Assembly: GCA_030533405.1 (NCBI GenBank)
Contig: JAUNJF010000017.1
Coordinates: forward strand, 1 to 60,307
DNA: 60,307 bases
Origin: Eubacteriales bacterium
GTDB taxonomy: Bacteria > Bacillota > Clostridia > Lachnospirales > Lachnospiraceae
Direction of reading: 5' to 3'
A program made the position numbers and the translations under genes. Under the pieces are notes generated by a model. It was not told the origin of the DNA and did not search any database. It saw only the letters and a list, made by a program, of their open reading frames with translations. Shown piece after piece: positions 604-12,774 of the stretch; the first letter of the stretch is position 1; every line of letters starts with the position of its first letter.

Positions 604-608
604 GCTAA

Positions 609-648
609 GAAAAAAGACCGAGACACAGAAAGTGTCTTGGTCTTTTTT
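609..648 (+). terminator. Rho-independent terminator of the tRNA cluster
   Basis: A long A-tract / stem / T-tract hairpin. GACCGAGACAC pairs with GTGTCTTGGTC (one G-T pair) around a five-base loop and is followed by six T. The flanking A6 and T6 make it work in either direction. It sits immediately downstream of tRNA-Leu. Confidence 0.93.
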
Positions 649-855
649 GTAGTGGAACGCCCCCTCGAACCGGTCGGTTCGCAATGCCATCATATTCGAA
701 GGGAGTGGTGATATTACCATCTGAAGAAGTTGAATACCTGGGTAAGTCTGTATATAATAGTAAATAGTAAAAACATGCAATGCCCAATGGAAATGTTTTG
801 AAATGAATATGATTATATAGAAGAATAATAGATTTAATTAGGAGAATTAGGATAT
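649..855. other. junction region between tRNA cluster and gene array
   Basis: No convincing gene. A short open frame on the plus strand (ATG near 693, stop at about 768, roughly 27 codons with residues GVVILPSEEVEYLG) could be the tail of a destroyed gene, but it has no ribosome binding site and no recognised family. If an integrase once lay next to tRNA-Leu, nothing recognisable of it is left here. Confidence 0.4.
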
Positions 856-1386
856 ATGATTGAATTATCTAAATTAACTTTGGTGAATTATTGTCATCCG
901 GATTGTGTTCCGTTAAAAAATATAATGCGATTACCTAAACTACAAGCTTTCCAAATGGCGAAGCAATTTGCGGATTCGCATCCAGAAACAACTGCTTTTT
1001 ATCGTTTCGCAGATTTTGAGAATTATTACAACTTAAGGGTAGAACAGGACAAGTATTTATATGATACCTTTCTAGCATTAGGTGGAAATCCGAAAGAGGA
1101 ACATCCACTATCGTTCGTGATTGAAGGAAGTGATTACCTGTCAGATTGGTTTGGAAATGGTATTGAAACAAGAATTTTATTGAGTAAAATTGCAGAGGAA
1201 CATATTAGTTTTACCCTTGGAGATAGTGGAGCAGAATTTGGTAGAAATAAATCAGTAGAATTACTAACTTTAAAGCAATTTGAAAAGTTACTTCATGAAC
1301 AAAGTGGTGATTATAATGATTTTATGAAAAAAATTGGAAAGCAGTATGTTGAAGTTCAGATATGGTCAGATGAATATTTTGAATAA
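856..1386 (+). CDS. hypothetical protein, first gene of the small-gene array
   Basis: 176 residues, cytoplasmic (no signal peptide or membrane segment), acidic and rich in aromatic residues. The start is ATG 856 with a GGAG site upstream. I do not recognise the family. A small acidic single-domain protein placed at the head of a run of SUKH, DMP19 and DUF4303 genes is what an orphan immunity protein would look like, but that is inference from context only. It is followed within 60 bases by a gene remnant. Confidence 0.75.
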   Translation: MIELSKLTLVNYCHPDCVPLKNIMRLPKLQAFQMAKQFADSHPETTAFYRFADFENYYNLRVEQDKYLYDTFLALGGNPKEEHPLSFVIEGSDYLSDWFGNGIETRILLSKIAEEHISFTLGDSGAEFGRNKSVELLTLKQFEKLLHEQSGDYNDFMKKIGKQYVEVQIWSDEYFE

Positions 1387-1390
1387 CTGA

Positions 1391-1792
1391 GTAAATTTTG
1401 AGTTTCTAACCAGTTTATTTAATTTTTTTAGTGTTCATAATCTGTTGTTTTTTATTGGGATTGCCATCATTGGTAGTGTGATAATCATATTGGAAAATAT
1501 GATATACAGAAATATGAATTGGATTCCAAAGTTTGTTTCCAATATGGATAAGCTTGATTTGATGCTAAATCAAAAGGAAATGTTGGAATCAATAGAAGAA
1601 TCTTTATCGAAAGATATTGTATTTCAATGCGCAATGTTTATTATCACAAAAGATTTTTTTATTTCCTGGGGTGAAGATGATTTGCGATTTCGTCCAATTG
1701 CGGTGCCGCGAAATATGATTACCAATATTGCAATTGTAAATGAATCAGTGGGAGCTGGATTCAGTTCGTCCAGAAATCTTGTGATTTTGTAA
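1391..1792 (+). pseudogene. fragment of a small membrane protein gene
   Basis: The frame is open from just after a stop at 1388-1390, but it offers only CTG/TTG starts (1442, 1445) and no ribosome binding site. The translated part has one hydrophobic helix (FFIGIAIIGSVIIIL) and then about 90 soluble residues that stop abruptly. The shape suggests the middle of a larger membrane protein with both ends lost. Family not recognised. It reads as a dead cassette left between two intact genes. Alternatively it is a real 115-residue protein started at TTG 1445. Confidence 0.5.
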
Positions 1793-1933
1793 ATGAAGCT
1801 GAATAATGATTGTATGGCGCGATGTTGTGTAGGCGTAGGGGATGCCCATAAAATATGGTCACAATTGGAACAACATTTTCTTTCTGATTTTGATTTGAAT
1901 TAGTAAAATAGAATTTTGGAGGTGTTTTAGGAA

Positions 1934-2404
1934 ATGGATATATGGGAAAAGTTATATTTAGCCGCAAAGGAACAGTATCATCCAGAGGAGGCTTCGCCAT
2001 TTATATATGCGCACCATGTTGTATGTGCAATTGAAAGTGAAAATGGAGATATTTTCACAGGTTTTTGTATCGAGGGATGTAGTGGTGTGATTAATTTATG
2101 CGCAGAAAGAGTTGCGGCTCTTAATATGTACGTAAATAGCGGACAGACGGTGATTAAACGAATGATTGCATTTCGAGATGAAGCACCAAGAGGTGATGTT
2201 GAAGGAAGCGGCATGCCTTGTGGTGCATGTAGAGAGTTCCTTATGCAGTTATCATATGAGAATAAAAATATGGAAATTATGGCAGATTATGAAACGCGAA
2301 AAACAGTTACCTTGGGTGAGATTTTTCCAGAGTGGTGGGGAACGTCTAGATACCTAACAGGAAAAGATTATTATGATGAAAGTGATGGACAGAAATATGA
2401 GTAA
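1934..2404 (+). CDS. cytidine deaminase-like protein
   Basis: 156 residues with the zinc-dependent deaminase signature. The catalytic HxE/CxE motif appears as CAE in LCAERVAAL (about residues 56-64), with the second zinc motif PCGAC at about residues 96-100. This places it in the cytidine/blasticidin-S deaminase superfamily. The N-terminus is longer and more acidic than housekeeping Cdd. Start ATG 1934 has GGAGGTG upstream. Its stop overlaps the start of the next gene (ATGAGTAA), so the two are translationally coupled. Substrate unknown: free cytidine, an antibiotic nucleoside or a nucleotide signal are all possible. Confidence 0.82.
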   Translation: MDIWEKLYLAAKEQYHPEEASPFIYAHHVVCAIESENGDIFTGFCIEGCSGVINLCAERVAALNMYVNSGQTVIKRMIAFRDEAPRGDVEGSGMPCGACREFLMQLSYENKNMEIMADYETRKTVTLGEIFPEWWGTSRYLTGKDYYDESDGQKYE

Positions 2405-3116
2405 GGTATTATTTATAGCAGATATTCATGGTAATATGCCTGCGGTACAGGCGCTTGAAAAAGAAATAGAAAAAATACAACCAGACAAAATATATTTTTT
2501 AGGAGATGCAGTGGGAAAAGGCCCAGAAAATGACCAAGCTGTAGACTGGGTAAGAAGTCATTGTGACTGTTGTATAAAAGGTAACTGGGATGATGGCATA
2601 GTGGGTTCATACAGAGGAACAGGATATCCAGGAAATGATTTTTATATAAAGCAACTTGGAAAAGAAAGAATAGAGTGGTTGGAAAAATTACCGTTTGAAG
2701 ATGAAGTACTTATAAGTGGTTTATGGTTTAGATTAGTTCATGGTCGTCCTACAGACAGACTTTATCAGGCATACGATGATTGGGCAGAATTAATGCAAGG
2801 TTTTGTATCAAAGGTATCTGATAAGACATTTAATGCATATATTTGCGCAGATTCTCATATGCCATATATAAGAACTTGTGGATATGGATATGCTATAAAT
2901 ACTGGTAGCGTAGGAAATAGTCTAGGTTTTCCGAGGGTACATGCAGTATTAGTAGAAGGTGAGCTTGGAAGTACAGAACTATCATCGTTGAGATGTGAAG
3001 TAGTAAGTATTCCGTATTGTAATCAAGCAGCTGCAGATGCCGCTGATAAGTATGAGGATTTTCCAGAGAAAGAATGCTGGAAGAAAGAAGTACTAACTGG
3101 TGAATATAGCAGATAA
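2397..3116 (+). CDS. calcineurin-like metallophosphoesterase (YfcE/serine-threonine phosphatase-like)
   Basis: About 239 residues from ATG 2397; upstream ATGs at 2373-2385 lie inside the deaminase gene and lack a site. The metallophosphoesterase blocks are clear: DIHGN (residues 10-14), GDAVGKGP (GDxxxxGP), GNWDD (GNxD type), LVHGRP and the late ADSH block. These are the ligands of a di-metal phosphoesterase. The eight-base ATGAGTAA overlap with the deaminase gene suggests the two enzymes act on the same nucleotide-like substrate, which is inference. A diverged copy of the array's post-stop repeat (TGATTTTGA-type) follows its stop codon. Confidence 0.85.
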   Translation: MSKVLFIADIHGNMPAVQALEKEIEKIQPDKIYFLGDAVGKGPENDQAVDWVRSHCDCCIKGNWDDGIVGSYRGTGYPGNDFYIKQLGKERIEWLEKLPFEDEVLISGLWFRLVHGRPTDRLYQAYDDWAELMQGFVSKVSDKTFNAYICADSHMPYIRTCGYGYAINTGSVGNSLGFPRVHAVLVEGELGSTELSSLRCEVVSIPYCNQAAADAADKYEDFPEKECWKKEVLTGEYSR

Positions 3117-3141
3117 GATGATTTTGAGAATACGGGCTACG

Positions 3142-3155
3142 TAGATTCCGATTTT
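3142..3155 (+). repeat. intergenic repeat E, copy 1
   Basis: The 14-mer TAGATTCCGATTTT recurs exactly at 4251-4264, in front of an unrelated gene. Both copies lie in 5' leaders within the array. Confidence 0.6.
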
Positions 3156-3176
3156 TGGAATTAAACTAATTTGAAG

Positions 3177-3231
3177 TTGTCGAGCTGGAGATAGTAAGTT
3201 GAAGTTTGATAATACGCTGCAGAGAGGTAAT
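3177..3231 (+). repeat. array junction repeat A, copy 1 (gene leader)
   Basis: Begins TTGTCGAGCTGGAGATAG and continues to the ribosome binding site of the next gene. Its first 27 bases are identical to 9699-9725. The next 28 align to the second copy with scattered differences and a two-base indel. The copies precede unrelated genes (DMP19-like here, YdbC/PC4 there). Confidence 0.8.
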
Positions 3232-3615
3232 ATGAATTATATAGATATTGCATTAAAAACAATAAATAATGGTGAGGATTTTGTTCAGGCTATGGCAGAT
3301 AAATATAGTAATCCGGAGGTTGATTTGAAGCAATATCCTGACTGGATTAAGAATATCTTGACATTGATAGATTATGATACAGAATTGCAGATGGATGGAT
3401 TGGATTTTAAATCATATAAAAATGTTATAGATGCGTTAAATGATGTTGGGTTATATGAAGAAGCACAAGCATTAAAGGAATTAGAAGAAGATTCTTCTGA
3501 GAAATCAGTAGAAGAATGTTATTCCAAGCTAGCGATTAATAATGATTATGAAATGTTTTGGGATACTGTTTTTGAATATGCAGATAAAAATTTGAATACG
3601 GATAATAATTTTTGA
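3232..3615 (+). CDS. DMP19/DUF4375-like immunity-type protein
   Basis: 127 residues from ATG 3232, which has AGAGAGG seven bases upstream, so the in-frame TTG at 3199 is not needed. The all-helical pattern (LTLIDYDTELQMDG, KNVIDALNDVGLYEEA, LEELEEDSS-type linker, then an acidic helix ending in EYADKNL) resembles DMP19/DUF4375 proteins, which are common in immunity gene arrays. Its leader, including the ribosome binding site, is repeat A, so the repeat delivers translation signals to the gene. Confidence 0.6.
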   Translation: MNYIDIALKTINNGEDFVQAMADKYSNPEVDLKQYPDWIKNILTLIDYDTELQMDGLDFKSYKNVIDALNDVGLYEEAQALKELEEDSSEKSVEECYSKLAINNDYEMFWDTVFEYADKNLNTDNNF

Positions 3616-3669
3616 TTTGAAATTTTATTTGAGGGATGAAGATGAAAGTATAAATGAGGAAATGAAAGT

Positions 3670-4113
3670 ATGTTGAATCAGAATATAACGTATAGAGAAT
3701 ATGCGCCAACAGATATTAGGAATGTCAGAGATATCTTGGAAGCTGATCTCGGATATGTTGTTCCTTTGGATGAACTAGCAGATAGAATAAGAGAAATGGA
3801 TTCTGATAATAATTACAAAATATTTGTTGCCTGTGAGAGCGAAGAAGTTATTGGATTTGTAGGAATGGTTTCCTATATTGTGTTTGAGCGAAAAGACAAA
3901 GTTGCGAAAATAATTGCACTTGCAGTTTCGAAACAGTATAGGGGAAAAGGAATTGGGACAAATCTTTTGGAAAAAGTAGAGAATTATTGTAGTAGCCAAA
4001 ATATAGGTGTCCTTTTATTAAACAGCGGATTGGTGAGAGATAATGCACATAAGTTTTATGAGTCAAAAGGATATTTGAAAAAAAGTTACGGATTTGTAAA
4101 ACAGTTGATGTGA
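3670..4113 (+). CDS. GNAT family N-acetyltransferase
   Basis: 147 residues, the usual length of a single GNAT domain. Motif A is intact: a beta strand (IALAV) followed by QYRGKGIG at about residues 95-102 (Q/R-x-x-G-x-G, the acetyl-CoA pyrophosphate loop). The C-terminal NAHKFYESKGY is the classic motif B end. The substrate cannot be told. Start ATG 3670 has GAGGAAA upstream. The stop codon merges with repeat D. Confidence 0.88.
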   Translation: MLNQNITYREYAPTDIRNVRDILEADLGYVVPLDELADRIREMDSDNNYKIFVACESEEVIGFVGMVSYIVFERKDKVAKIIALAVSKQYRGKGIGTNLLEKVENYCSSQNIGVLLLNSGLVRDNAHKFYESKGYLKKSYGFVKQLM

Positions 4114-4141
4114 TATGATTTTGATAATATCGTTCTAAGTT
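4113..4141 (+). repeat. intergenic repeat D, copy 1 (directly after a stop codon)
   Basis: ATATGATTTTGATAATATCG (4113-4132) is identical to 10119-10138, and a 14-base part recurs at 7465-7478. Here it continues into TTCTAAGTT; a diverged version (ATAATCGTTATGCAAGTT) follows the stop at 5272-5274. Other weak copies follow the stops at 3116 and 10043. Confidence 0.72.
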
Positions 4142-4181
4142 AAAAAATCTGGAACTGACTTAATTCTGAAATTGAAAAATG

Positions 4182-4220
4182 AGAAGAAAGGATTTTTATG
4201 GTAATCCTTTCTTCTTTTTT
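4182..4220 (+). terminator. Rho-independent terminator
   Basis: AGAAGAAAGGATT pairs perfectly with AATCCTTTCTTCT around an eight-base loop, followed by T5. It ends the transcript of the GNAT gene and upstream array genes. Confidence 0.9.
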
Positions 4221-4250
4221 GTATAATATTCGTGGATGGTGTGATAGCAT

Positions 4251-4264
4251 TAGATTCCGATTTT
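4251..4264 (+). repeat. intergenic repeat E, copy 2
   Basis: Exact second copy of the 14-mer TAGATTCCGATTTT found at 3142, about 20 bases before the start of the next small gene. Confidence 0.6.
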
Positions 4265-4285
4265 AATGCGTAAAAGGGATAGAAA

Positions 4286-4519
4286 GTGTATTTGAAATGT
4301 CCGTTTGTAGATGGTGAACCTATGGCAGTAGATATCGAAGAAATAGGGGAATGTGATATTGGAGACGTTTTGTCGTCTGAAACGGGTGGTTGGTCTTATA
4401 TACAATATAATGAAATCAATGATTTATCAGAAGAAGGGAAAAAAGTATTCTTTGAATTTATTGAATCAAAAGGTTTTCATTATAGTAATTTGGAAAAATA
4501 CGGATTCATAGCGGATTAG
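4286..4519 (+). CDS. hypothetical small acidic protein
   Basis: 77 residues from GTG 4286, with AAAGGGATAGAAA just upstream. Very acidic, no membrane segment. The family is not recognised; the last 30 residues (SEEGKKVFFEFIESKGF) look helical. It could be an intact mini-immunity protein or the surviving end of a larger gene. Confidence 0.6.
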   Translation: MYLKCPFVDGEPMAVDIEEIGECDIGDVLSSETGGWSYIQYNEINDLSEEGKKVFFEFIESKGFHYSNLEKYGFIAD

Positions 4520-4572
4520 GACGACTGATAATTAAGAAATTGGAAATTAAATACTATAGGGAGGCATCATAG

Positions 4573-5274
4573 ATGGCAAAAATATCAATACATGTTCCGT
4601 TGCATTATGAAAACGGAATTTACAAATTAAGAGAGTTGGTTCAGAAGAATGAGGATTGTTTGGAATTATCATTAAGCGAATATGATGTATTAGAATATGA
4701 CACTCCTACATTTAACAGTGAAGTGAGGATGTATTCCGTAAAGGAAGATGCCTTAAGTGATACTATGGAAGTCATTTATGATGAAAAAGGATTGCTCAAA
4801 AAGATTACATATGTATGTGATGGACAGAGGACATTAGTATATATCAATATGAGTGATAGTGTCGTAGTTTCAGAAGAAATAACAAACTATATTTTAACCA
4901 ATGCTGAGGTGATGGCTAAGCAACTACTAGAAAAAAATGGTAAAGTATATCGTTTGTTTTTTGATTATTTTTATGATGGAGAAGCAGTTGATTATTCTGC
5001 TATGATAGGTTTTGAAGCTGATCTACAGGCAATAGTAGATGAATATGATGGAGACCATGAGGTGTTGGATAACAGTGGCAACTATCCTCAGGAGAACTGC
5101 GTTAGGGCAGATATAGATTACCTAGGAGTAATGTTAATGTGCATGGATCCTAAAGTGGTTAACCAGGCATTTAATGATATATGTGAAAAAATGACAGATT
5201 CAATTGAAAAACTCGTAGTTGATAAGTTAGATAAGGCTGAGGGATTTGAAATCATTTCGGGAGAGTATGATTGA
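4573..5274 (+). CDS. hypothetical acidic cytoplasmic protein (two-part, immunity-like)
   Basis: 233 residues, start ATG 4573 with GGGAGG seven bases upstream. No signal peptide or transmembrane helix. The first part (about 1-110) is beta-rich; the second (about 115-233) has alternating helices and an acidic strand (VDEYDGDHEVLDNSGNYP). I do not recognise a named family. Composition and size match the other array proteins. A diverged repeat D follows its stop. Confidence 0.72.
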   Translation: MAKISIHVPLHYENGIYKLRELVQKNEDCLELSLSEYDVLEYDTPTFNSEVRMYSVKEDALSDTMEVIYDEKGLLKKITYVCDGQRTLVYINMSDSVVVSEEITNYILTNAEVMAKQLLEKNGKVYRLFFDYFYDGEAVDYSAMIGFEADLQAIVDEYDGDHEVLDNSGNYPQENCVRADIDYLGVMLMCMDPKVVNQAFNDICEKMTDSIEKLVVDKLDKAEGFEIISGEYD

Positions 5275-5312
5275 TATAATCGTTATGCAAGTTAAAAGGA
5301 GGATGTAATAAC

Positions 5313-5816
5313 ATGGGATCATTTGATATATTTGCGGAAGAATGTAATAAACACATGATGGAAGAGATAGAAAGTATCTTGGCAGAAATGCAAGGTAAGG
5401 AGTTTTGTTCAATAGGATTGATTACGACAGATGATTTATATGGCTTCTATTTGACTTGGAATGATCGAAATAATATTGGAGAATTTTATGATTGGGAAAA
5501 TGGTTCTAATCCAACCTTTTTATACCAGCCAGTAGTTGATGTTGTAGATGCTCATAAAGAGATAGATTTTTGCTCGCCCAACGAAGAAAAGTGGAATTTC
5601 GCTGTAAAAATACTAAAGGTTCTTGGAGATTCAATAAAAAATCTTCCGGAAGACCTATATAAAAAATATGGTTATGAGCGAAAGGATGTATTGTACTTTG
5701 CTACTATGGGCGATGGTGATTATATGGTAGAGATGATGCGGAATTCATTAGAGCTTTTTAATACTGAAGAGACTATAGAAAAGTACGGAATAGATGTAAA
5801 TAGCCTTTTTTGTTAG
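5313..5816 (+). CDS. DUF4303-like protein
   Basis: 167 residues. The features fit DUF4303: an N-terminal helix, the strand FCSIGLITTDDLYGFYLTWN, a helix ending in KYGYERKDVLYFATMGDGD, and a C-terminal helix with NSLELFN. DUF4303 proteins are frequent in polyimmunity loci. Start ATG 5313 follows AAAGGAGG by 10 bases. Probably cytoplasmic, no enzymatic motif visible. Confidence 0.68.
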   Translation: MGSFDIFAEECNKHMMEEIESILAEMQGKEFCSIGLITTDDLYGFYLTWNDRNNIGEFYDWENGSNPTFLYQPVVDVVDAHKEIDFCSPNEEKWNFAVKILKVLGDSIKNLPEDLYKKYGYERKDVLYFATMGDGDYMVEMMRNSLELFNTEETIEKYGIDVNSLFC

Positions 5817-5910
5817 ACTTAAAAATGCGAAACAGAGGATGTCAGTATTTTTTTAGGGTTTAAGTTTAGGATATTATTTTGATTATATGTTGTAAGAAGG
5901 GAAAGATGAA

Positions 5911-6270
5911 ATGGTGGATGAAAATATTCTTGAACAAATAAAAGGTTGCTGGCAAAGCGAAGGCTGGGGCTTTATCATTTGTGAACAGGTGGAGTTGGTA
6001 CCATATGTTTCTAAGGCACTGATTGATATAGGGGCAGAAGATATGCTGGCAGCATTTGAAAAGGTAATTGCATGTTTTCCAGAAGATACAATATTTGAGA
6101 ACACGGCTAAATATTTTGATTTGTATAATTTTGTGCAGAGCTATTCATATAAAGTACAAGATGAGAAGCTAAAGGCTGTTCCCAGTGAACAGAGAAGAGC
6201 CGCAGTTAAACAATTTAGAAGCCGAATTGAAGAACTTGATGAAATAACGGAAAAATATTGGAATATTTAA
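5911..6270 (+). CDS. DMP19/DUF4375-like protein
   Basis: 119 residues. The core VELVPYVSKALIDIGAEDMLAAFEKV with an acidic C-terminal helix (ELDEITEKYWNI) matches the DMP19/DUF4375 pattern. This is the second such protein in the array and is not closely similar to the one at 3232, so it is not a simple duplication. Start ATG 5911 has GAAGGGAAAG upstream. The next gene frame begins inside its last codons. Confidence 0.65.
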   Translation: MVDENILEQIKGCWQSEGWGFIICEQVELVPYVSKALIDIGAEDMLAAFEKVIACFPEDTIFENTAKYFDLYNFVQSYSYKVQDEKLKAVPSEQRRAAVKQFRSRIEELDEITEKYWNI

Positions 6271-6830
6271 TATCTTGTTATTATTTTGAAAATATTAATT
6301 TACAAGTTATTGAGAGCAAGTGTATTAAAGAGCTTGAAGACAATTATTCTGCTTTGGAAGGTTTTGATATCAAAGTCCTGCACAAAGAAGAGATTGAAAG
6401 AAACTGGAGCGAAATTTGGAGAGCAACTGGAAGTATTATTGAACATCTAAAAAGAGCACCTGTTTTTTATCCGGCGGATGAATTTACAGAAGAAATCTAT
6501 AACGAATATTTTATGAGCGAAGACTTAGAACTAATTGTTGCGTATAAAGATGACACAATAGCAGGAATCATAGAGTGGAACAAGGAAGAAAACGAATTCA
6601 TGCGGAAAAAAGGGGACTCCGTTAATGTTGGAGAAGCTTTTGTTTATCCAGAGTATAGAAGAACAGGCCTATCAGAAAAACTATTAAGTTTTTCTGAGAA
6701 GAGGGCTTTGGCGGAAGGGTATAAGTATATGTGGGTTGAACATGGTACTGCCAATCCGAATGCACGCGGTTTTTGGGATAAGTATTTCTATATATATAGC
6801 TATGAGTTGGTAAGAACTATTATGAGATAA
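6258..6830 (+). CDS. GNAT-like acetyltransferase, N-terminus probably truncated
   Basis: The frame opens at TTG 6258, overlaps the preceding gene by 13 bases, and has no ribosome binding site. The C-terminal half is a GNAT domain: VNVGEAFVYPEYRRTGLSEK gives motif A (R-x-T-G-x-S, slightly degenerate), followed by GTANPNARGFWDKYF as the motif B region. The part before APVFYPADEF is weakly conserved and starts abruptly, so the original N-terminus may have been lost when this cassette joined the DMP19-like gene. Possibly a pseudogene; possibly expressed through coupling. Confidence 0.6.
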   Translation: MEYLISCYYFENINLQVIESKCIKELEDNYSALEGFDIKVLHKEEIERNWSEIWRATGSIIEHLKRAPVFYPADEFTEEIYNEYFMSEDLELIVAYKDDTIAGIIEWNKEENEFMRKKGDSVNVGEAFVYPEYRRTGLSEKLLSFSEKRALAEGYKYMWVEHGTANPNARGFWDKYFYIYSYELVRTIMR

Positions 6831-6868
6831 ATTGAAACTTGCAAATGAATATTTAGGAGAAAAGAATA

Positions 6869-7402
6869 ATGGATAATAAATTTAAAGCATTTTTTAAATC
6901 ATTGGAAGATACAACACTAATAGAATCAACCGAAAAAGAAAAAGAAAGAATAATATCACTAACTAATAATAAAATGCCAGAGACCTTTTGGGACTTCTAT
7001 TCTAAAGAAATGCCAGATGATGATATAGAATTTGGCGATTTTGAGTTCTATGGATTAGAACGTATGATAGAGGAAAATGAGGACGCGGTTCCAGGATATA
7101 TTGTAATGAAGTATGGCCTTTTTGTATTTGCCTCAACATTTGATGGCGATGGAATTTGTTTTGATATGACGAAAGAAAACTTTCCGGTTTATCAATGCTC
7201 ACATTCGCTCATAGATGAAGATGAGATTTCATACTATAAAGGAAAGATGTGTGAGCTAGAAACTAATTATGAATCTATAATAAAAGTTTCTCCTCTTTTA
7301 GCAAATAGTTTTGATGAATTTATTGATATGTTGATTAAAGATACTGTTGAGACATATTCAGTTACAGAGATAATTGAGGGCCTTGATGATGAGGTGGAAT
7401 AG
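6869..7402 (+). CDS. SMI1/KNR4 (SUKH) family immunity-type protein
   Basis: 177 residues. The SUKH N-terminal hallmark is present: ITEKE-like helix, then KMPETFWDFYSKEMPDDDIEF at about residues 32-52, followed by the beta-rich core with GYIVMKYGLFVFAST. SUKH proteins are known immunity proteins for diverse nuclease and deaminase toxins. Start ATG 6869 follows AGGAGAAAAG. No adjacent toxin gene exists, so it would be an orphan immunity gene. Confidence 0.78.
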   Translation: MDNKFKAFFKSLEDTTLIESTEKEKERIISLTNNKMPETFWDFYSKEMPDDDIEFGDFEFYGLERMIEENEDAVPGYIVMKYGLFVFASTFDGDGICFDMTKENFPVYQCSHSLIDEDEISYYKGKMCELETNYESIIKVSPLLANSFDEFIDMLIKDTVETYSVTEIIEGLDDEVE

Positions 7403-7464
7403 TTGTATCGCTTTTAGGAGCTTAAGTGTTAGCGGAAATTCTTATTTGTTAAACAGATAAATTT

Positions 7465-7478
7465 ATATGATTTTGATA
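7465..7478 (+). repeat. intergenic repeat D, partial copy
   Basis: ATATGATTTTGATA, 14 bases identical to the start of the copies at 4113 and 10119. It lies between the SUKH gene and the next small gene. Confidence 0.5.
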
Positions 7479-7509
7479 CGGTACATCAGAATTAGTAAAG
7501 GAGAAAGAT

Positions 7510-7890
7510 ATGGCATCAGTTTTTAGAATCGAAAAGAAGAATATAGACAATCCACAGGAGTGGTATGAGGAAACTTGGGGATGTACTTTAGATGATAATG
7601 AGTTTTCGGAGCAAGGTGATTACTACATATTTGAGGATTTTGGCGAAGAATTATTTATGTTTGTGCCAACGGAAGAGTGGTTGGATATTGCAGGCGATAA
7701 TCATTTGATATTTGGTTATTATTCTGATGATTCACTATCAGCAGAATTTATTGAAATCAAAAATGGAAAGTGTATAAGAGAATATAGGCAATACGGTGAT
7801 GCACCAGAGGATAATATTGATGAGGGAGATGAGCCAGTATTTGAGGATTGGGTTGATGTAGCATCGTATGTTGATTCAGAATTATTATGA
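7510..7890 (+). CDS. hypothetical acidic immunity-like protein
   Basis: 126 residues, strongly acidic, single domain. It starts ASVFRIEKKNIDNPQEWYEE and ends with FEDWVDVASYVDSELL. The aromatic-acidic strands and the conserved-looking terminal W-D-V pattern resemble barnase-inhibitor-like immunity folds, but I cannot assign a Pfam family. Start ATG 7510 is preceded by AAAGGAGAAAG. Confidence 0.65.
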   Translation: MASVFRIEKKNIDNPQEWYEETWGCTLDDNEFSEQGDYYIFEDFGEELFMFVPTEEWLDIAGDNHLIFGYYSDDSLSAEFIEIKNGKCIREYRQYGDAPEDNIDEGDEPVFEDWVDVASYVDSELL

Positions 7891-7894
7891 TATT

Positions 7895-8002
7895 GATTTA
7901 TTACCTGTATCGTCTGATGTTGAAATATGTTTCCAGGAATGTAAACTTAATTGTAAATCAATTGAAGTGGCAAAAGATTATTCAAGTCATGCTACAAATT
8001 GA
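7895..8002 (+). pseudogene. orphan C-terminal gene fragment
   Basis: An open frame of 35 codons, DLLPVSSDVEICFQECKLNC and onward to a stop at 8000-8002, with no start codon or ribosome binding site. It lies wholly between two intact genes. The protein-like composition suggests the last part of a gene whose front was deleted when cassettes recombined. Too short to identify; it could be chance. Confidence 0.35.
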
Positions 8003-8016
8003 AGATTTTGGGAAAT

Positions 8017-8033
8017 AAATAGATAACTTAGAA
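8017..8033 (+). repeat. junction repeat B, copy 1
   Basis: The 17-mer AAATAGATAACTTAGAA is identical to 10968-10984. Both copies lie a short distance upstream of a ribosome binding site, before a Nudix gene here and before a methyltransferase there. Confidence 0.68.
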
Positions 8034-8048
8034 GTTGTGGAGGAGTAT

Positions 8049-8537
8049 ATGGAGTACGATTGTGGATTTGCAAAAGGGAATAATTGGTTTAGATATCGCA
8101 CAGGTGGAATCATAATTCATAATAATAAAATGCTTTTTGTTAAAAGTGCAGTTGGTGATTATTATTATATGATAGGTGGTGGTGTACATTTAGGTGAAAA
8201 GTCAAATACATGTATTGAACGAGAGATTTTTGAGGAATCGGGTATTAATGCTCGTGTAGAACATCTTGCAGTAGTGTGTGAAAATTTTTTCAAAGGTATT
8301 GGTGGAAAAATCGATGGATTAGACTGTCATACGATAGAATTTTATTACTATATGCAGATTATAGATGATGATTTGAGTTTATGTAAGGATTTAACTGATG
8401 ATGGCGAAACTTTGGTATGGTTACCAATTGAAAAGATTGAACAGAGCAAGATTAAGCCGACATTTATAAAAGAACACATCAATGAAATAATCAATGGAAA
8501 AACCACGATTCATATTATTGAGGAAAGAGATAGATAA
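8049..8537 (+). CDS. Nudix hydrolase
   Basis: 162 residues from ATG 8049 (GGAGGA five to ten bases upstream; GTG 8037 is less likely). The Nudix box is complete: G-x5-E-x7-R-E-x2-E-E-x-G-I, running GGVHLGEKSNTCIEREIFEE plus SGI at about residues 43-65. It therefore hydrolyses a nucleoside diphosphate linked to another moiety. The substrate is unknown. Nudix genes are also frequent in integron cassette arrays. Its stop codon overlaps repeat C. Confidence 0.9.
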   Translation: MEYDCGFAKGNNWFRYRTGGIIIHNNKMLFVKSAVGDYYYMIGGGVHLGEKSNTCIEREIFEESGINARVEHLAVVCENFFKGIGGKIDGLDCHTIEFYYYMQIIDDDLSLCKDLTDDGETLVWLPIEKIEQSKIKPTFIKEHINEIINGKTTIHIIEERDR

Positions 8538-8547
8538 ATCCCAGTTT
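8536..8547 (+). repeat. junction repeat C, copy 1
   Basis: AAATCCCAGTTT, identical to 11818-11829; the variant AAATCCCAACTT at 9689 leads straight into repeat A. It sits at the 3' end of the Nudix gene. Confidence 0.55.
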
Positions 8548-8571
8548 TTCGTGCAACCAAGGTGAGTGAAG

Positions 8572-8970
8572 ATGAATAATAGATGTTATACATATTTTAG
8601 AATAGTAGGAAAATTTAATACGGATGATATTAGCCATATTTTAAAACTTACACCTGAGAAGAAATGGGATATTGGTGATGTAAGACCAAAAGGTAGTAAA
8701 TATAACTTTGCAAATTGGGCAATTGGTTATTGCAAAGATTATAATATTGATACATCAGTTCAAATGGAAAAGACAATAAGTATATTGATGGATAAGAAAG
8801 AGGAACTTAAGCAGATTCGAGAGAAAAATGATGTTGAATTCTTTTTGCAAGTTGTTCCGACATTATGTATTGATGAATCTACGCCTGCATTGGCTCCATC
8901 AATGGCTGTCATGGATTTTTGTTATGAAACAAGGACAGAGATAGATATAGATTTGTATTTGGAAGATTAA
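8572..8970 (+). CDS. DUF4279-like protein
   Basis: 132 residues from ATG 8572 (AAGGTGAG upstream). The DUF4279 pattern is recognisable: an N-terminal strand CYTYFRIVGKFNTDDIS, KLTPEKKWDIGD, an NFANWAIGY region where family members carry a W-x2-G motif, and the final short strand DIDLYLE. Function unknown. The family is often found next to immunity proteins. Confidence 0.72.
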   Translation: MNNRCYTYFRIVGKFNTDDISHILKLTPEKKWDIGDVRPKGSKYNFANWAIGYCKDYNIDTSVQMEKTISILMDKKEELKQIREKNDVEFFLQVVPTLCIDESTPALAPSMAVMDFCYETRTEIDIDLYLED

Positions 8971-8989
8971 AAATGGTATAAATTTTTAA

Positions 8990-9024
8990 TTTACATTGCG
9001 TCATAATTATGCTACAATTATGAC
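8990..9024 (+). promoter_or_regulatory. promoter with operator palindrome for the RelBE-like pair
   Basis: The -35 box TTTACA (8990-8995) and the -10 box TACAAT (9013-9018) are separated by 17 bases. An inverted repeat, GTCATAATT (9000-9008) and AATTATGAC (9016-9024), covers the spacer and -10. This fits autorepression by the antitoxin-toxin complex encoded just downstream. Confidence 0.75.
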
Positions 9025-9046
9025 ACGAGAAAGAGAGGTGTTTGTT

Positions 9047-9310
9047 ATGCCAACAATTATGCCAATTAGAGATTTAAGGAATACAAGTGAAATATCTGAA
9101 CTAGCACATAAAAAACAGGAGCCTATTTTTATAACAAAAAATGGTTATAGTGACTTGGTTGTGATGAGTGCTGAATTATATGAGAGGTTTGCACAGATTA
9201 ATAAGATTGACCAAGCAATTTATGAGGCAGAGAAAGAAGTAGAAGAAGGTGCGGAACCAATTTCAATGAATAGTGCAATGGAAAGATTAAATCAGAAATA
9301 CTATGGATAA
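9047..9310 (+). CDS. Phd/YefM (RelB-like) antitoxin
   Basis: 87 residues from ATG 9047, preceded by AGAGAGGTG; the longer frame from TTG 8996 would run through the promoter. The N-terminal Phd/YefM fold is seen in MPIRDLRNTSEISELAHKK and PIFITKNGYSDLVVMS, giving the DNA-binding dimer. The C-terminal acidic helix would wrap the toxin. It should repress its own promoter through the palindrome at 9000-9024. Its end overlaps the toxin gene by eight bases. Confidence 0.9.
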   Translation: MPTIMPIRDLRNTSEISELAHKKQEPIFITKNGYSDLVVMSAELYERFAQINKIDQAIYEAEKEVEEGAEPISMNSAMERLNQKYYG

Positions 9311-9605
9311 ATATGAAGTTATGTTATATCCTAAAGCCTTTCGTGATATAGATGACATCTATGCATATATTGCATTTGAAAAACTATCACCAGAAAATGC
9401 AAAAGGGCAGACGGATAGGATATGGGATGCAATAAGAACGCTGGAACAGATGCCAGAGGCACATCAGGATCGATTGGTTGGAAGATATGCTGGTAAAGGA
9501 TATAAACAATTAATAATTGATAATTATCTTGTAATCTATAAAATGGATAATACTTCAAAAAAAGTATTTGTTGTAACAGTACAATATCAAGGAAGAAATA
9601 TTTGA
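9303..9605 (+). CDS. RelE/ParE-family toxin
   Basis: 100 residues, typical for the family. The fold is seen as KAFRDIDDIYAYIAFEK (two helices), then MPEAHQDRLVGRYAGKGYKQL and the beta sheet IIDNYLVIYKMDNTSKKV, ending with the VQYQGRNI strand. A basic, RNA-cleaving (RelE) or gyrase-directed (ParE) role cannot be separated by eye. Starts ATG 9303 inside the antitoxin gene, so the pair is translationally coupled. Confidence 0.9.
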   Translation: MDKYEVMLYPKAFRDIDDIYAYIAFEKLSPENAKGQTDRIWDAIRTLEQMPEAHQDRLVGRYAGKGYKQLIIDNYLVIYKMDNTSKKVFVVTVQYQGRNI

Positions 9606-9609
9606 TGTT

Positions 9610-9641
9610 AAAGCAGCTGATGTAGAATTGGCTGCTTTTTT
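9610..9641 (+). terminator. terminator after the RelBE-like pair
   Basis: AAAGCAGC pairs with GCTGCTTT across a 13-base loop and runs into T6. Modest stem but correct position directly after the toxin stop. Confidence 0.7.
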
Positions 9642-9688
9642 GAACAACAGTAAGCTTTGAAAATTTTATCGATTTACGGCACACAGAC

Positions 9689-9755
9689 AAATCCCAACTT
9701 GTCGAGCTGGAGATAGTAAGTTGAATTTTGACCATACGGTGTAGATAGTGGTAAT
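9689..9755 (+). repeat. composite junction element: repeat C followed by repeat A, copy 2
   Basis: AAATCCCAACTT (9689-9700) runs into TTGTCGAGCTGGAGATAG, the repeat A sequence also found at 3177. The same C-then-A order, in degenerate form, occurs at 11818-11850. This is the clearest complete junction element in the array. Confidence 0.78.
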
Positions 9756-9785
9756 AGAAGCTATTTGATAGTAGAGGTGGATAAT

Positions 9786-10043
9786 ATGAAAAAGTATGAA
9801 ATAGCGATTCATATAGCTGATTTATGTGATGAGAATAACGGATGGAAAAAAGAACTAAATGTTGTTCAAATAAATGAACGTGAACCTGTTTATGAGATAC
9901 GATCTTGGAATAAAGATCACACTCGAATGGGTGATGGAGTGACATTAACGCCTAAGGAGATGCGTTTGTTAAAGAGAATATGTGAATCAATGGAATTTGA
10001 CAGAATAGATGGTAATATGGAGATTCCGATAATTGATGGTTGA
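9786..10043 (+). CDS. YdbC/PC4-family single-strand DNA-binding protein
   Basis: 85 residues from ATG 9786 (AGAGGTGG upstream; the GTG/ATG at 9765 is too early). KYEIAIHIADLCDENNGWKK, ELNVVQINEREPVYEIRSW and TLTPKEMRLLKRI match the YdbC family, whose fold is that of the transcription coactivator PC4 and which binds single-stranded nucleic acid. Its presence among cassettes is curious and might relate to ssDNA intermediates, which is speculation. Confidence 0.8.
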   Translation: MKKYEIAIHIADLCDENNGWKKELNVVQINEREPVYEIRSWNKDHTRMGDGVTLTPKEMRLLKRICESMEFDRIDGNMEIPIIDG

Positions 10044-10118
10044 ATTATTTTGATATGGTTTAAAAATTTCTGATTCGCGCGTGAAGGGATGTATGAAAAA
10101 TGTGGAGTGATTTTGATT

Positions 10119-10138
10119 ATATGATTTTGATAATATCG
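10119..10138 (+). repeat. intergenic repeat D, copy 2
   Basis: ATATGATTTTGATAATATCG, 20 bases identical to 4113-4132. The region 10048-10118 holds two more degenerate TGATTTTGAT/TATATG-like units, so this spacer seems built from stacked repeat remnants. Confidence 0.72.
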
Positions 10139-10160
10139 GCTAATGTAAATTTTAATTCTA

Positions 10161-10190
10161 TTGACTAAAATATATATCTTGGTATATACT
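10161..10190 (+). promoter_or_regulatory. promoter of the vapBC pair
   Basis: TTGACT (10161-10166), 18-base spacer, TATACT (10185-10190). The ribosome binding site GGAAGGAG follows within 20 bases. No clear palindrome was found in it, although the AT-rich stretch ATATATATCTTGGTATAT is partly symmetrical. Confidence 0.75.
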
Positions 10191-10217
10191 GATAATATAA
10201 GGAAGGAGTTGATAATT

Positions 10218-10448
10218 ATGATGACTGCAAAAGTTTTTGAAAATGGTAGAAGTCAAGCGGTAAGACTTCCAAAAGAATGTAGATTTAATACAGATGAAGT
10301 AGCAGTGAATCGAATCGGAGATATTGTTTTGTTGATGCCAAAAACAAATAAATGGAATTCATTTATGCAGGCAATAGATATGTTTTCAGATGATTTTATG
10401 CAAGATGGTCGAGATGGTAGTCTTGAGCAGGAGCGTGAAGCATTATGA
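10218..10448 (+). CDS. vapB: VapB-type antitoxin (AbrB/MazE-like swapped hairpin)
   Basis: 76 residues from ATG 10218 (or 10221). The N-terminus MTAKVFENGRSQAVRLPKEC is the textbook SpoVT/AbrB-type VapB DNA-binding hairpin (NGxSQAVRLP). The C-terminal acidic helix (DDFMQDGRDGSLEQER) is the toxin-neutralising tail. Stop overlaps the toxin start by four bases (ATGA). Confidence 0.93.
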   Translation: MMTAKVFENGRSQAVRLPKECRFNTDEVAVNRIGDIVLLMPKTNKWNSFMQAIDMFSDDFMQDGRDGSLEQEREAL

Positions 10449-10846
10449 GATATATGCTAGATACCAATATATGTATTTATGCAATTAAGCATAAGCCTGA
10501 GCAAGTATTTATACGTTTGCAAGAACATGATCCAATAGATATATGTATTTCTTCTGTAACTTATGCAGAATTGGTGCATGGAGTGGAGAAGAGCAAAGCA
10601 ATAGAGAAGAATAGAGTTGCATTAGCTTTATTATTGGCAAATATTGAGATTATGAATTTTGATTCATTGGCAGCTGAGAGTTATGGTAAGATTCGAGCAG
10701 ATTTGGAAAAAGCAAGTACACCAATTGGTCCGTTAGATATGATGATTGCAGGTCACGCTAAAGCATTGGGCTATACGGTGGTTACAAATAATACGAAAGA
10801 GTTTGAAAGAGTAAAAGGATTAAAACTTGAAAATTGGGCTGAATAA
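10445..10846 (+). CDS. vapC: VapC-type PIN-domain ribonuclease toxin
   Basis: 133 residues. The PIN catalytic acids are visible: D at MLDTNICIYAIK (residue 5), E at SVTYAELVHGVEKS (about residue 41), D at IGPLDMMIAGHAKA (about residue 98), and the closing TNNTKEFERVKGL motif. VapC toxins cleave tRNA or rRNA when free of VapB. Translationally coupled to vapB. Hairpin terminator immediately downstream. Confidence 0.94.
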   Translation: MRYMLDTNICIYAIKHKPEQVFIRLQEHDPIDICISSVTYAELVHGVEKSKAIEKNRVALALLLANIEIMNFDSLAAESYGKIRADLEKASTPIGPLDMMIAGHAKALGYTVVTNNTKEFERVKGLKLENWAE

Positions 10847-10859
10847 ATTAGATGTTAGT

Positions 10860-10887
10860 AGAAAAGTGCGACTCGTCGCACTTTTCT
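10860..10887 (+). terminator. hairpin after vapBC
   Basis: AGAAAAGTGCGA pairs perfectly with TCGCACTTTTCT around a four-base loop. The A- and T-rich stem base allows termination, but no separate T-tract follows. Confidence 0.75.
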
Positions 10888-10937
10888 AGGTTTCGATTAA
10901 AGTATGAATTGACCGAGCTCTTTTTGAGCGAGGGATG

Positions 10938-10961
10938 ACAATTGAACGTAGGTTCAATTGT
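10938..10961. repeat. perfect 10-bp inverted repeat
   Basis: ACAATTGAAC and GTTCAATTGT separated by GTAG. It lies seven bases before repeat B, in the spacer between vapBC and the methyltransferase gene. It could be an RNA hairpin or a protein-binding site; nothing in the sequence decides. Confidence 0.6.
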
Positions 10962-10967
10962 ATGGGC

Positions 10968-11001
10968 AAATAGATAACTTAGAATATGTCGAGATAGTTA
11001 G
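10968..11001 (+). repeat. junction repeat B, copy 2, with degenerate repeat A
   Basis: The 17-mer AAATAGATAACTTAGAA is exactly that of 8017. It is followed at 10986 by TGTCGAGATAGTTAGACGTT, which looks like repeat A (TGTCGAGCTGGAGATAG) with an internal five-base deletion. The ribosome binding site GACGGAGG follows directly. Confidence 0.65.
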
Positions 11002-11020
11002 ACGTTGACGGAGGTTTGGT

Positions 11021-11800
11021 ATGAGCAAGATAAATGATACATTAGTAGTGAAACAACAGTATGCTACCGCAAATAATTTAAGTACGAGAATATCCATTCA
11101 TGATAAATATTCAACGAATAAGATGGGATTTGGAAATTGGATAGTATCAAATTATAAAATTGATAAAGGTGCAAGAGTGTTAGAGTTAGGTTGTGGAACA
11201 GGAGATATGTGGAAAGGGAGAGAATCGTTGATTTGTGATTGTTCCCAAATAATACTTTCAGATTTTTCGGATGGAATGGTAGCTACTGCAAAAGAAGTGA
11301 TAGGGAACTATGATAATATTGAATATAGAGTTTTGGATATTCAAGATATACCTTATGAAGATGACAGCTTTGATATTATTATCGCAAATATGATGTTATA
11401 TCATGTTCCTAATATAGATAAAGGATTATCTGAGGTGCGTCGTGTATTAAAAAAAGGTGGTGTTTTTTATTGTGCGACATATGGAGAACATGGGATTATA
11501 GATTATCTTTCCCAAATTCTATCTGAATATGGGGTTGAAGATAATATTAATAAGAATTTTACACTTCAAAACGGGTTTGAGATTTTGAATAAAACCTTTT
11601 CAAATGTCGAAAAAAAAGAATATATTGATTCTTTGGAAGTTACCTATGTTGATGATATGGTGGAATATATTTATTCGCTTTCCGGTATGACATCATTGAG
11701 TAGTGTACCGAAACAAGCGATAAAGGATGTTTTGATTCAAAATACATCAGATGGTATTTTGAATGTTCCGAAGGAATATGGGATGTTTATATCGTATTAG
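11021..11800 (+). CDS. class I SAM-dependent methyltransferase
   Basis: 259 residues. Motif I ARVLELGCGTGDMW at about residues 51-64 binds S-adenosylmethionine. IEYRVLDIQDIPYEDDSFDI at about 105-124 is the acidic post-motif region, followed by ANMMLYHVPNIDKGLSEVRR and LKKGGVFYCATYGEHG (motifs II and III). It is of the small-molecule (UbiE/SmtA-like) type and the substrate is unknown. Start ATG 11021 follows GGAGG by six bases. Confidence 0.88.
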   Translation: MSKINDTLVVKQQYATANNLSTRISIHDKYSTNKMGFGNWIVSNYKIDKGARVLELGCGTGDMWKGRESLICDCSQIILSDFSDGMVATAKEVIGNYDNIEYRVLDIQDIPYEDDSFDIIIANMMLYHVPNIDKGLSEVRRVLKKGGVFYCATYGEHGIIDYLSQILSEYGVEDNINKNFTLQNGFEILNKTFSNVEKKEYIDSLEVTYVDDMVEYIYSLSGMTSLSSVPKQAIKDVLIQNTSDGILNVPKEYGMFISY

Positions 11801-11817
11801 AAAGCAATGTAGCGATC

Positions 11818-11850
11818 AAAATCCCAGTTTAGCTGTCGAAAAGGATATAG
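11818..11850 (+). repeat. junction repeat C, copy 2, followed by degenerate repeat A
   Basis: AAATCCCAGTTT (identical to 8536) continues as AGCTGTCGAAAAGGATATAG, which aligns with TTGTCGAGCTGGAGATAG of repeat A. The AAAGGA within it would serve as ribosome binding site for the mini-ORF at 11854. Confidence 0.6.
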
Positions 11851-11853
11851 AAT

Positions 11854-11916
11854 ATGGAAAAAGTCAGAATCACTAAATATACAGGAAATGATAGGGATTG
11901 GATAGTTGAAACTTAG
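11854..11916 (+). pseudogene. remnant gene start (about 20 codons)
   Basis: ATG 11854 with AAAGGA upstream encodes EKVRITKYTGNDRDWIVET and then stops. It looks like the intact front of a gene whose body was lost, again sitting directly behind a junction repeat. It could also be a genuine short peptide. No family assigned. Confidence 0.4.
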
Positions 11917-11962
11917 AGATGAATCACCAGATTCAAATTGAACTGTGAAAGGATAGATTGTG

Positions 11963-12589
11963 ATGATAGCAACAGGTGCGAGTGATTTGGTAAAAAAATA
12001 TGTGGATGGATTGAAACAAGCTTTTTACGCTAACGGCGGAAAAGAAGAGTGGGATGAGTTTGAGGGTGTAAAAGAAGGTGCTTCTCAAGAAAACATTTTG
12101 AAATTGAAAGAGCTGTATCCTGAAATACCAGATTCATTAGTGGAGATGTTAAAGTATGCAGATGGTACCTATTTTAGAGAGTATAGGGGTGTAAATATTG
12201 CATTATACTTTTTGGGTTCTGATTTGGAAGAGTATCCCTATTATCTGTTATCTTCCGGAGAGATGATAAAGAATCAGGCATTGGCCCAGGAGTGGTATGG
12301 TGATTACATAAACAGAGAGTTTGATCCGGAAGACATTCCAATTGATGATAAGATTATTGATGATGCTGACAAAATGAAATGGTTGCATTTTTCAGATTGC
12401 ATGAATAATGGTGGATCGTCTCAGCTGTTCATTGATTTTTCTCCATCAGAAAAAGGAAAGAACGGACAAGTTGTAATGTTTGTTCATGATTCAGACTATA
12501 TAGAAGTCATTGCAGACAGCTTTGATGAGTACCTTGAAAAAATGATGAATCAACAATTTGACTTTATTATAGATGAGTATTTTGGTTAA
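11963..12589 (+). CDS. SMI1/KNR4 (SUKH) family protein
   Basis: 208 residues from ATG 11963 (GTG 11960 equally possible), AAAGG upstream. SUKH features: ASQENILKLKELYPEIPDSL (EE-x-LP-like helix), LVEMLKYADGTYFREY, then the conserved W in MKWLHFSDCMNNGGSSQLFI (residues 138-157) and a final ADSFDEYLEKM helix. This is the second SUKH protein in the array and is not closely similar to that at 6869. Last recognisable gene of the array. Confidence 0.82.
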   Translation: MIATGASDLVKKYVDGLKQAFYANGGKEEWDEFEGVKEGASQENILKLKELYPEIPDSLVEMLKYADGTYFREYRGVNIALYFLGSDLEEYPYYLLSSGEMIKNQALAQEWYGDYINREFDPEDIPIDDKIIDDADKMKWLHFSDCMNNGGSSQLFIDFSPSEKGKNGQVVMFVHDSDYIEVIADSFDEYLEKMMNQQFDFIIDEYFG

Positions 12590-12598
12590 TTCTGTTAT

Positions 12599-12699: not shown

Positions 12700-12774
12700 T
12701 TTTTATAAGTTCATGAAATTTGGTAAGTAAAAAGAAAGGATAATGATGATACACAAATGAAAATAAATGATAGG

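Follow-up and report, generated by a model that had tools for sequence, protein, structure and literature searches.

Single accessory genes meeting at a dispersed junction repeat: a probable cassette mosaic in a Lachnospiraceae genome

How did 21 small genes of mixed kind come to lie head to tail on one strand of a Lachnospiraceae chromosome, and do they serve a common purpose? The question is raised by a stretch of 60,307 nucleotides (nt) from Eubacteriales bacterium (assembly GCA_030533405.1, contig JAUNJF010000017.1), referred to as the window. The original prediction, made from the sequence alone, saw in positions 850–12590 an acquired array of orphan immunity genes, built by cassette capture and equivalent to the acquired interbacterial defence (AID) clusters of Bacteroidales. 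We find a strand-biased repeat dispersed between the genes, single genes shared with other genomes, and an excess of shared-segment ends near the repeat. We hold it moderately probable that the array consists of cassettes acquired one by one, forming a mosaic that is joined at a junction which we call J–M by a site-specific recombinase acting in trans.

Repeated intergenic DNA, which the original prediction cited from Bacteroidales, is present in the window as the elements J, R and M. The junction repeat was first recognised at 3165 and 9687 (82% identity over 62 nt). J is a core of 36 nt, ATTTTGATAATACGGGCTA(C)CGT, which often stands directly 3′ of a stop codon and runs into M, a 12-nt motif with the sequence AAATTCYNATTT. 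The elements of the window array, together with a second intergenic repeat, are as follows.

3119–3154, plus strand: J core continued by M (AGATTCCGATTT at 3143); model R1, 38.6 bits
3165–3226, plus strand: R, leader-type copy of the junction repeat, preceding the next gene; shares 82% identity with 9687–9748 over 62 nt
4252–4263, plus strand: M (motif count)
7436–7447, plus strand: M (motif count)
8536–8547, plus strand: M (AAATCCCAGTTT), overlapping the Nudix stop codon (motif count)
9687–9748, plus strand: R, leader-type junction repeat (repeat comparison)
10124–10157, plus strand: J core; model R1, 29.3 bits
10905–10985, plus strand: second dispersed intergenic repeat, with a palindrome; 91–95% identity in genomes G349 (contig C34) and G238 (contig C67)
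11819–11830, plus strand: M (motif count)

M thus begins at 3143, 4252, 7436, 8536 and 11819, and once more inside a gene (8949); the remainder of the variable chromosomal site in which the array lies holds two copies (15088, 20447). Six arrays in this genome have 9.5 kb of intergenic DNA, in which strict M has 27 copies on the gene strand and six on the other. Coding DNA (29.9 kb) has four copies on each strand, and other window DNA (39.7 kb) one and two. Eight segments from the same site in other genomes of the genus (29.7 kb) contain a slightly relaxed M three times on the plus and five times on the minus strand, and no J core. In 207 kb there are 14 places at which the J profile scores 18–55 bits; when this sequence was shuffled five times, the highest score was 11.6 bits. 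Elsewhere in the window genome the junction repeat was found on contigs C56, C20, C71, C14 and C86, with further intergenic repeat pieces on C18, C88 and C74, mostly beside other small genes. J and M are both present in five further arrays.

Outside this genome (G000), a search of the genus's 25 other genomes gave no match to the 85-bp junction repeat. A scan of 84,980 species genomes with the J pattern gave seven loci, namely in four metagenome-assembled genomes (MAGs) titled Horse_feces, in Candidatus Colinaster equi, in Lachnospiraceae MAG SUG1698 and in one Anaerolineae. The Anaerolineae hit was taken for chance, lying inside a gene that reads as dprA; the sole viral hit, with no small-gene array in the surrounding stretch, is probably chance as well. 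J is present in seven other genomes (G238 and G347–G352), of which five are horse-gut MAGs by title, Candidatus Colinaster equi being taken as horse-derived from its name and from the accessible part of an equine paper that uses it. The window genome may itself come from a horse. The R pattern (up to three mismatches) was found in two of 299 family genomes, G000 and G238. Among the 150 candidates scored per genome out of about 1,860–3,440, so that the counts are lower bounds, model R1 has at least 14 matches in G000, at least two in G238 and at least one to four in each of G347–G352; it has none among the 150 scored candidates of each of four same-genus controls.

Three side observations may be added. 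J sites and arrays often lie at or near contig ends (C18, C20, C56, C71 and C88 of G000; C10, C20, C30 and C45 of G349; C42 of G350), so the assemblies seem to break there. A palindromic intergenic repeat of about 105–158 bp recurs with 77–85% identity in three genomes (L051 6076–6179, L063 6055–6212, L110 145–300). In stretch L049 a weak tRNA-like fragment (5824–5882, 16 bits) has a T-arm-like end (GGTTCGATTCCAGTTTTCG) that merges into an M-like motif.

The J-bearing genomes share genes singly, and cassette-wise capture, as originally proposed, is borne out to that extent. Between different genomes of this set there are 14 shared segments (at least 150 bp, at least 75% identity). Eight are whole-gene matches involving the window genome and represent seven genes or pairs, at 76–98% DNA identity and in six cases at 91–98%. 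An HTH gene on C18 is 98.5% identical in G352, and a BAAT-like gene on C56 is 97.5% identical on a 385-kb contig of G238. The GGDEF and hydrolase genes of C20 (96%) and the Fic gene of C88 (91%) also recur in G238. A toxin–antitoxin pair of the window is found at 91% in G349 and at 87% (8991–9613) in G238, with different neighbours, and the window Nudix gene has a 76% match in G348. Another HTH gene is common to G348 and G352 (86%); the other segments are a GGDEF paralogue, an extra toxin–antitoxin comparison and three pieces below 200 bp. Housekeeping DNA (window 20492–34950) reaches 65–87% in the same genomes, and 45 of 48 pieces do not exceed 79%. Four pieces that are scattered here over C84, C20 (twice) and C88 are united on a single 7.9-kb contig of G238, a genome of another genus. 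As a separate observation, G349 also carries a partial copy of the window PIN toxin gene (L133 964–1126, 90% over 163 bp).

Shared segments of this kind could be produced by assembly or binning, if contigs had been assigned to the wrong genome. The genomes are drafts and many arrays are at or near contig ends, as such an error would have it. However, the BAAT-like cassette lies within a 102-kb contig of G000 and the 385-kb contig of G238 with different neighbours, and the segments are 76–98% alike, not identical. We consider an artefact hardly credible.

The ends of the shared segments are found near M in excess. The left end of the HTH segment lies at GTAGATTCTAATTTT in the window genome and at GTAAATTCTAATTTT in G352. 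The BAAT-like segment has its right end at the end of J, and both the right end of the Nudix segment (G348) and the left end of the toxin–antitoxin segment (G349) fall on M-like sequence. Over all 14 comparisons, 12 of 28 ends are within 20 nt of a slightly relaxed M in one of the two genomes or in both. For randomly placed intergenic positions in these loci the figure is 3.6 of 28, and one trial in 5000 reaches 12; of random position pairs, 3.3% are near M. A reduced set of nine comparisons, which omits the GGDEF paralogue, the third toxin–antitoxin comparison and the three pieces below 200 bp and still counts the toxin–antitoxin pair twice, has 11 of 18 ends near M (2.5 expected; none of 5000 trials as high).

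The array occupies a variable position in the chromosome, delimited as follows.

523–605, plus strand: tRNA-Leu(TAG), with which a conserved tRNA cluster ends; fixed left border (ARAGORN)
606–20491, no strand: variable segment from tRNA-Leu to dgt (comparison with same-genus loci)

Of the genus's 26 genomes, 20, its own included, match window 1–620, some of them in part. The right border is formed by dgt-dnaG-rpoD, the gene at 20492 reading as a dGTPase (dgt); these three genes, like GGDEF, dprA and the C20 hydrolase, were named by reading without a profile. From 18 same-genus stretches that were fetched, 15 were read (L040, L042 and L043 were too short). Eight carry tRNA-Leu together with a gene whose product is 87–93% identical to that of the window dgt-like gene, at spacings of 278, 866, 897, 1637, 2058, 2580, 4368 and 17,064 bases; the window spacing is 19.9 kb. 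In the other seven the dgt match or a called tRNA-Leu is missing, or the stretch stops too soon. BLASTP (E 1e-6) matched none of the genes of 856–12589 in the 15 loci, and weak DNA matches (70–74% over about 90–125 nt) to an antitoxin gene occur elsewhere in G005 and G009, two of five same-genus genomes. As the relatives' site differs and the array genes are absent there by BLASTP, we take the tRNA-Leu/dgt site for a hotspot, and the array not to have been inherited from the ancestor of the genus. The view that the array was acquired is upheld by this comparison, in which no same-genus relative has the same genes in the same order and content varies between species.

The variable site also holds a block at 12961–20491 with ECF sigma, M23, macro-domain and flavodoxin-like genes and, named by reading, HD-GYP and GGDEF-EAL genes; its part 12974–14408 has no DNA match among 59 other genomes searched. 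A 99-nt tRNA-like sequence (12600–12698; 19 bits, gathering score 29) directly follows the last array gene, perhaps as a degenerate tRNA or as the remnant of an attachment site. A phage or plasmid origin of the array was rejected for want of near matches to 600–12970 in 50,697 phage and 72,556 plasmid records. Single regions gave little more: 8980–10216 has none in plasmids and one 71% match over 15% of its length in a phage record, the C18 HTH cassette has one plasmid match (72% over 9% of its length), and the SUKH gene at 11960 has no match in viral contigs.

Several observations weigh against a cassette mosaic joined by a recombinase. No recombinase was found in or beside the arrays except a 5′-truncated integrase at the C18 array (L049). 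The search combined Pfam for 26 window proteins with phmmer, using the eight tyrosine recombinases found in the window genome, in 31 stretches; the negative refers to tyrosine recombinases, since serine recombinases and transposases had no profile search in the array loci. Neither an excised circle nor strain-level presence or absence was seen. Sixteen of the 28 segment ends are away from M, among them the upstream end of the Fic segment, which has no M, and the GGDEF–hydrolase join in L052 resembles microhomology. The nine-comparison set, meant to lessen redundancy, was chosen once the first count had been made, and several of the compared loci were selected because they bear J. Similarly, the J profile was trained on its own loci, and the arrays from which M was defined by eye were also those of its first count. 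Lone J copies occur outside arrays on C74 and C86, the latter near a SUKH fragment; J copies differ by one base in length and some are without the right half. The intergenic regions of 4286–7402 have no M or J-model match (there is one loose J-core match at 5877), and part of the array may therefore be older or assembled by another route.

The main rival is passive recombination at repeats. The array would then be an ordinary tRNA-adjacent island, whose genes came in through transformation or conjugation and became joined in homologous or microhomology recombination, with J and M as passive terminator-like or repetitive extragenic palindrome (REP)-like repeats and no dedicated system. The tRNA-flanked hotspot with other cargo in relatives, the missing recombinase, the restriction of M to 12 of 28 ends and the L052 join all agree with this, and terminator-like sites are more frequent in the array than in shuffles (nine versus a mean of 3.3). 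It accounts less well for segment ends that meet M more often than other intergenic positions of the same loci, or for a motif biased 27 to 6 between strands. Repeats of 36 nt are also short for efficient homologous recombination. We consider passive recombination possible but unlikely.

If a recombinase joins cassettes at J–M, known site systems offer two candidates. The first is a chromosomal integron remnant, i.e. a cluster of attC sites lacking integron-integrases (CALIN). As described in the accessible text of PMC9024848, chromosomal integrons and CALIN resemble our arrays in their single-gene cassettes of one orientation, short junction, interspecies exchange and accessory cargo; for Firmicutes that text reports extreme rarity of integrons, with a single complete one and a few CALIN. 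The 3′ position of the junction element and the toxin–antitoxin and acetyltransferase cargo would fit as well. Unlike integrons and CALIN, however, the J–M junction has no simple attC consensus or clear foldback, and no integron integrase was identified. The tests were by simple consensus and by folding only. In 8.4 kb of intergenic DNA, simple attC pairs (RYYYAAC...GTTRRRY) occur once on each strand, where mononucleotide shuffles of one strand average 0.57. Eight J/M stretches fold unremarkably as single strands (seven with z from −1.5 to 0.1, one with −2.1). None of the eight tyrosine recombinases was identified as IntI; the Xer-like L055, the only one of them scanned with the integron-integrase model, scored 104 versus 265. 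In the 3.4–3.7 kb around the eight genes the J profile reaches at most 4.2 bits. An integron remnant is extremely improbable.

The second candidate is a dif-like site at which host XerC/D would move cassettes, as for the pdif modules of Acinetobacter. Those modules, in the text available on them, contain one or two genes, have short bounding sites and no recombinase of their own, and lie mainly on plasmids; in the window genome, homology ends at M. The core of J can be divided into 11+6+11 nt, its arms then resembling the dif consensus. But the length of its right arm varies, the placeable homology ends fall at M and not at the central hexamer, and the exact dif pattern gave six matches in three of eight genomes with none in common, which did not single out a host dif. 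The Acinetobacter modules also alternate in site orientation. We regard a dif-like site as very improbable.

An Xer-like recombinase gene was noticed on another contig of the window genome (C5, L142 4103–10118). It scores below the XerC and XerD cut-offs and stands beside two convergent ORFs (open reading frames) that have the stretch IDNYELSVGF in common near their starts, on opposite strands; from its sequence the gene looks to be sited at an invertible switch. Relaxed M occurs there three times per strand in 14 kb, and eight and six times across 66 kb.

What the array carries bears on its proposed role in defence. A Pfam scan with curated cut-offs covered 26 window proteins, up to 15.8 kb, and gave the following features.

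856–12589, plus strand: array of 21 small co-oriented coding units (ORF listing)
1934–2404, plus strand: cytidine-deaminase-like gene (PF00383, 25.3 bits, cut-off 25)
2373–3116, plus strand: metallophosphoesterase (over cut-off)
3232–3615, plus strand: DMP19-like acidic protein (below cut-off, 15.7 versus 25, E 0.023)
3670–4113, plus strand: GNAT acetyltransferase (over cut-off)
4573–5274, plus strand: 233-aa protein with no family over cut-off (sub-cut-off GFRP match, E 0.098)
5313–5816, plus strand: DUF4303-like protein (below cut-off, 15.3 versus 23, E 0.017)
5911–6270, plus strand: DMP19-like protein (below cut-off, 21.5 versus 25)
6258–6830, plus strand: GNAT acetyltransferase (over cut-off)
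6869–7402, plus strand: SUKH-1 protein (PF09346, 26.3 bits, cut-off 25.4)
8037–8537, plus strand: Nudix gene (over cut-off)
8566–8970, plus strand: DUF4279 protein (over cut-off)
8980–9665, plus strand: Phd/YefM-ParE toxin–antitoxin unit (over cut-off)
9786–10043, plus strand: PC4-like ssDNA-binding protein (just under cut-off, 24.9 versus 25)
10161–10846, plus strand: MazE-like antitoxin (just under cut-off, 22.5 versus 24.7) and PIN toxin (over cut-off)
11021–11800, plus strand: SAM methyltransferase (over cut-off)
11960–12589, plus strand: SUKH-1 protein (PF09346, 54.5 bits)

The description as some 20 small same-strand genes, most with their own ribosome binding site, proved accurate. Beside the 21 units, all co-oriented on the plus strand, there is one doubtful extra ORF (1445–1792). 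Shine–Dalgarno-like 4-mers precede 17 of the 21 chosen starts, versus 26% of random positions; the count is approximate, and two of the positions entered (2388, 10219) are not start codons. In the C84 array the median gene product has 156 aa, and the co-oriented genes fit a range of about 100–300 codons. GC content is 33.1% in 606–12960 and 36.4% in 20492–60307. Most of the predicted gene names have Pfam support; DMP19 and DUF4303 appear only below cut-off. The genes at 856, 1445, 4286 and 7510 have no Pfam match up to E 10, and single-sequence structure models of the 4573 and 5313 proteins (pLDDT 37 and 47) were too poor for searching. For nine window proteins PADLOC gave a PDC-M40A match to the SUKH protein at 11960, a weak CARF match to the DUF4279 protein and nothing else. 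The C20 array carries a 77% DNA paralogue of the PC4-like gene.

Only the two SUKH genes belong firmly to an immunity family. With DUF4279, the two DMP19-like genes and the DUF4303-like gene, families that we take to be of immunity type, the share is at most six of 21. The names DMP19, DUF4279 and DUF4303 are absent from the accessible text of PMC3482391 on immunity loci. Genes of this type are densest at 5313–7402 (DUF4303-like, DMP19-like, GNAT, SUKH) and are otherwise interspersed with GNAT, Nudix, toxin–antitoxin and other genes. Apart from the toxin–antitoxin units no toxin gene was found in the window, as predicted, by reading of ORFs of at least 110 aa and by the profile scans to 15.8 kb.

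In the other five arrays 20 of 38 genes were scanned. C71 has one clear SUKH gene and one just under cut-off; on C20 there are matches to SUKH and to Imm30 that do not reach cut-off. DUF6678, GNAT, TrmO, transglutaminase-like, HTH, Fic and CAAX-protease genes are also present. Arrays with the same junctions carry a CAT-like gene (L017 62–667) and an aminoglycoside-acetyltransferase-like [AAC(3)-like] gene (L019 10911–11747), whose host looks like a gut commensal. The cargo is an accessory pool at large, not immunity alone, and the picture of a mainly interbacterial-defence locus is not supported.

This bears on a Gram-positive equivalent of AID or of its recombinase-associated form (rAID), which would be a store reserved for orphan immunity genes that act on the toxins of neighbours. 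Its basis would be the SUKH genes here and on C71, the DUF4279, DMP19-like and DUF4303-like genes, the sub-cut-off matches on C20, and the short co-oriented genes with intergenic motifs and low GC. In the accessible text of PMC12247911, rAID is defined by a recombinase, co-oriented short genes and intergenic motifs. The rAID loci of Bacteroidales have co-oriented genes of about 100–300 codons, intergenic motifs, low GC and SUKH members in common with the window array, which differs in its mixed cargo and in having no tyrosine recombinase found with it; moreover, the window genome is of Lachnospiraceae type and has several arrays. The co-oriented genes and motifs agree with rAID, and the predicted equivalence is only partly supported because immunity-type genes are a minority. 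With no intact recombinase found with the arrays and most cargo of non-immunity type, we consider a dedicated immunity store improbable.

Orphan multi-immunity loci in Firmicutes are not new, heterogeneous polyimmunity loci having been described there in 2012 (PMC3482391). As far as its accessible text goes, these are runs of at least four structurally unrelated immunity genes in tandem, and they too have co-oriented short genes, small gaps, no toxin gene between them and a content that differs between genomes. The window genome differs in that immunity families are a minority and that it has six arrays, polyimmunity loci usually occurring once per genome; several of them adjoin XerC/D, whereas no intact recombinase gene was found adjacent here. 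The array works like a cassette array, but no recombinase of the rAID kind was found with it and simple attC sites of the integron kind are not enriched. Among the papers listed on orphan immunity loci and on integrons of Firmicutes and Clostridia, none is on a junction like J–M, going by titles and the beginnings of abstracts. What surprises is the J–M junction and the cross-genus sharing of single genes, rather than the immunity genes as such.

In the mosaic that we favour, cassettes of mostly one gene or one toxin–antitoxin pair would be laid head to tail in a single orientation at the hotspot between tRNA-Leu and dgt-dnaG-rpoD, meeting at the dispersed repeat where J runs into M. A recombinase provided in trans would join them at M, much as an integron integrase does at attC, and with each gain the incoming gene would come to lie after a stop codon already present. 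The cargo would be drawn from a general accessory pool in which orphan immunity proteins (SUKH, Imm30-like, perhaps also DUF4279, DMP19-like and DUF4303-like proteins) form one class; going by their family names only, these would protect against the toxins of neighbours.

Tentatively, and with rather less confidence than for the mosaic itself, we suggest that gut Lachnospiraceae share a non-integron cassette system. A J–M site and a recombinase acting in trans or supplied by another strain would shuffle single accessory genes (orphan immunity, toxin–antitoxin, antibiotic acetyltransferase and regulator genes) between genera in the gut of the same host. With integrons so rare in Firmicutes, going by the available part of PMC9024848, the way in which gut Clostridia acquire single accessory genes calls for an explanation. 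The J–M site marks where single genes join and would offer a direct handle on this process. It places orphan immunity genes within a broader cassette economy, and it suggests a route by which resistance-type genes may move among commensals.

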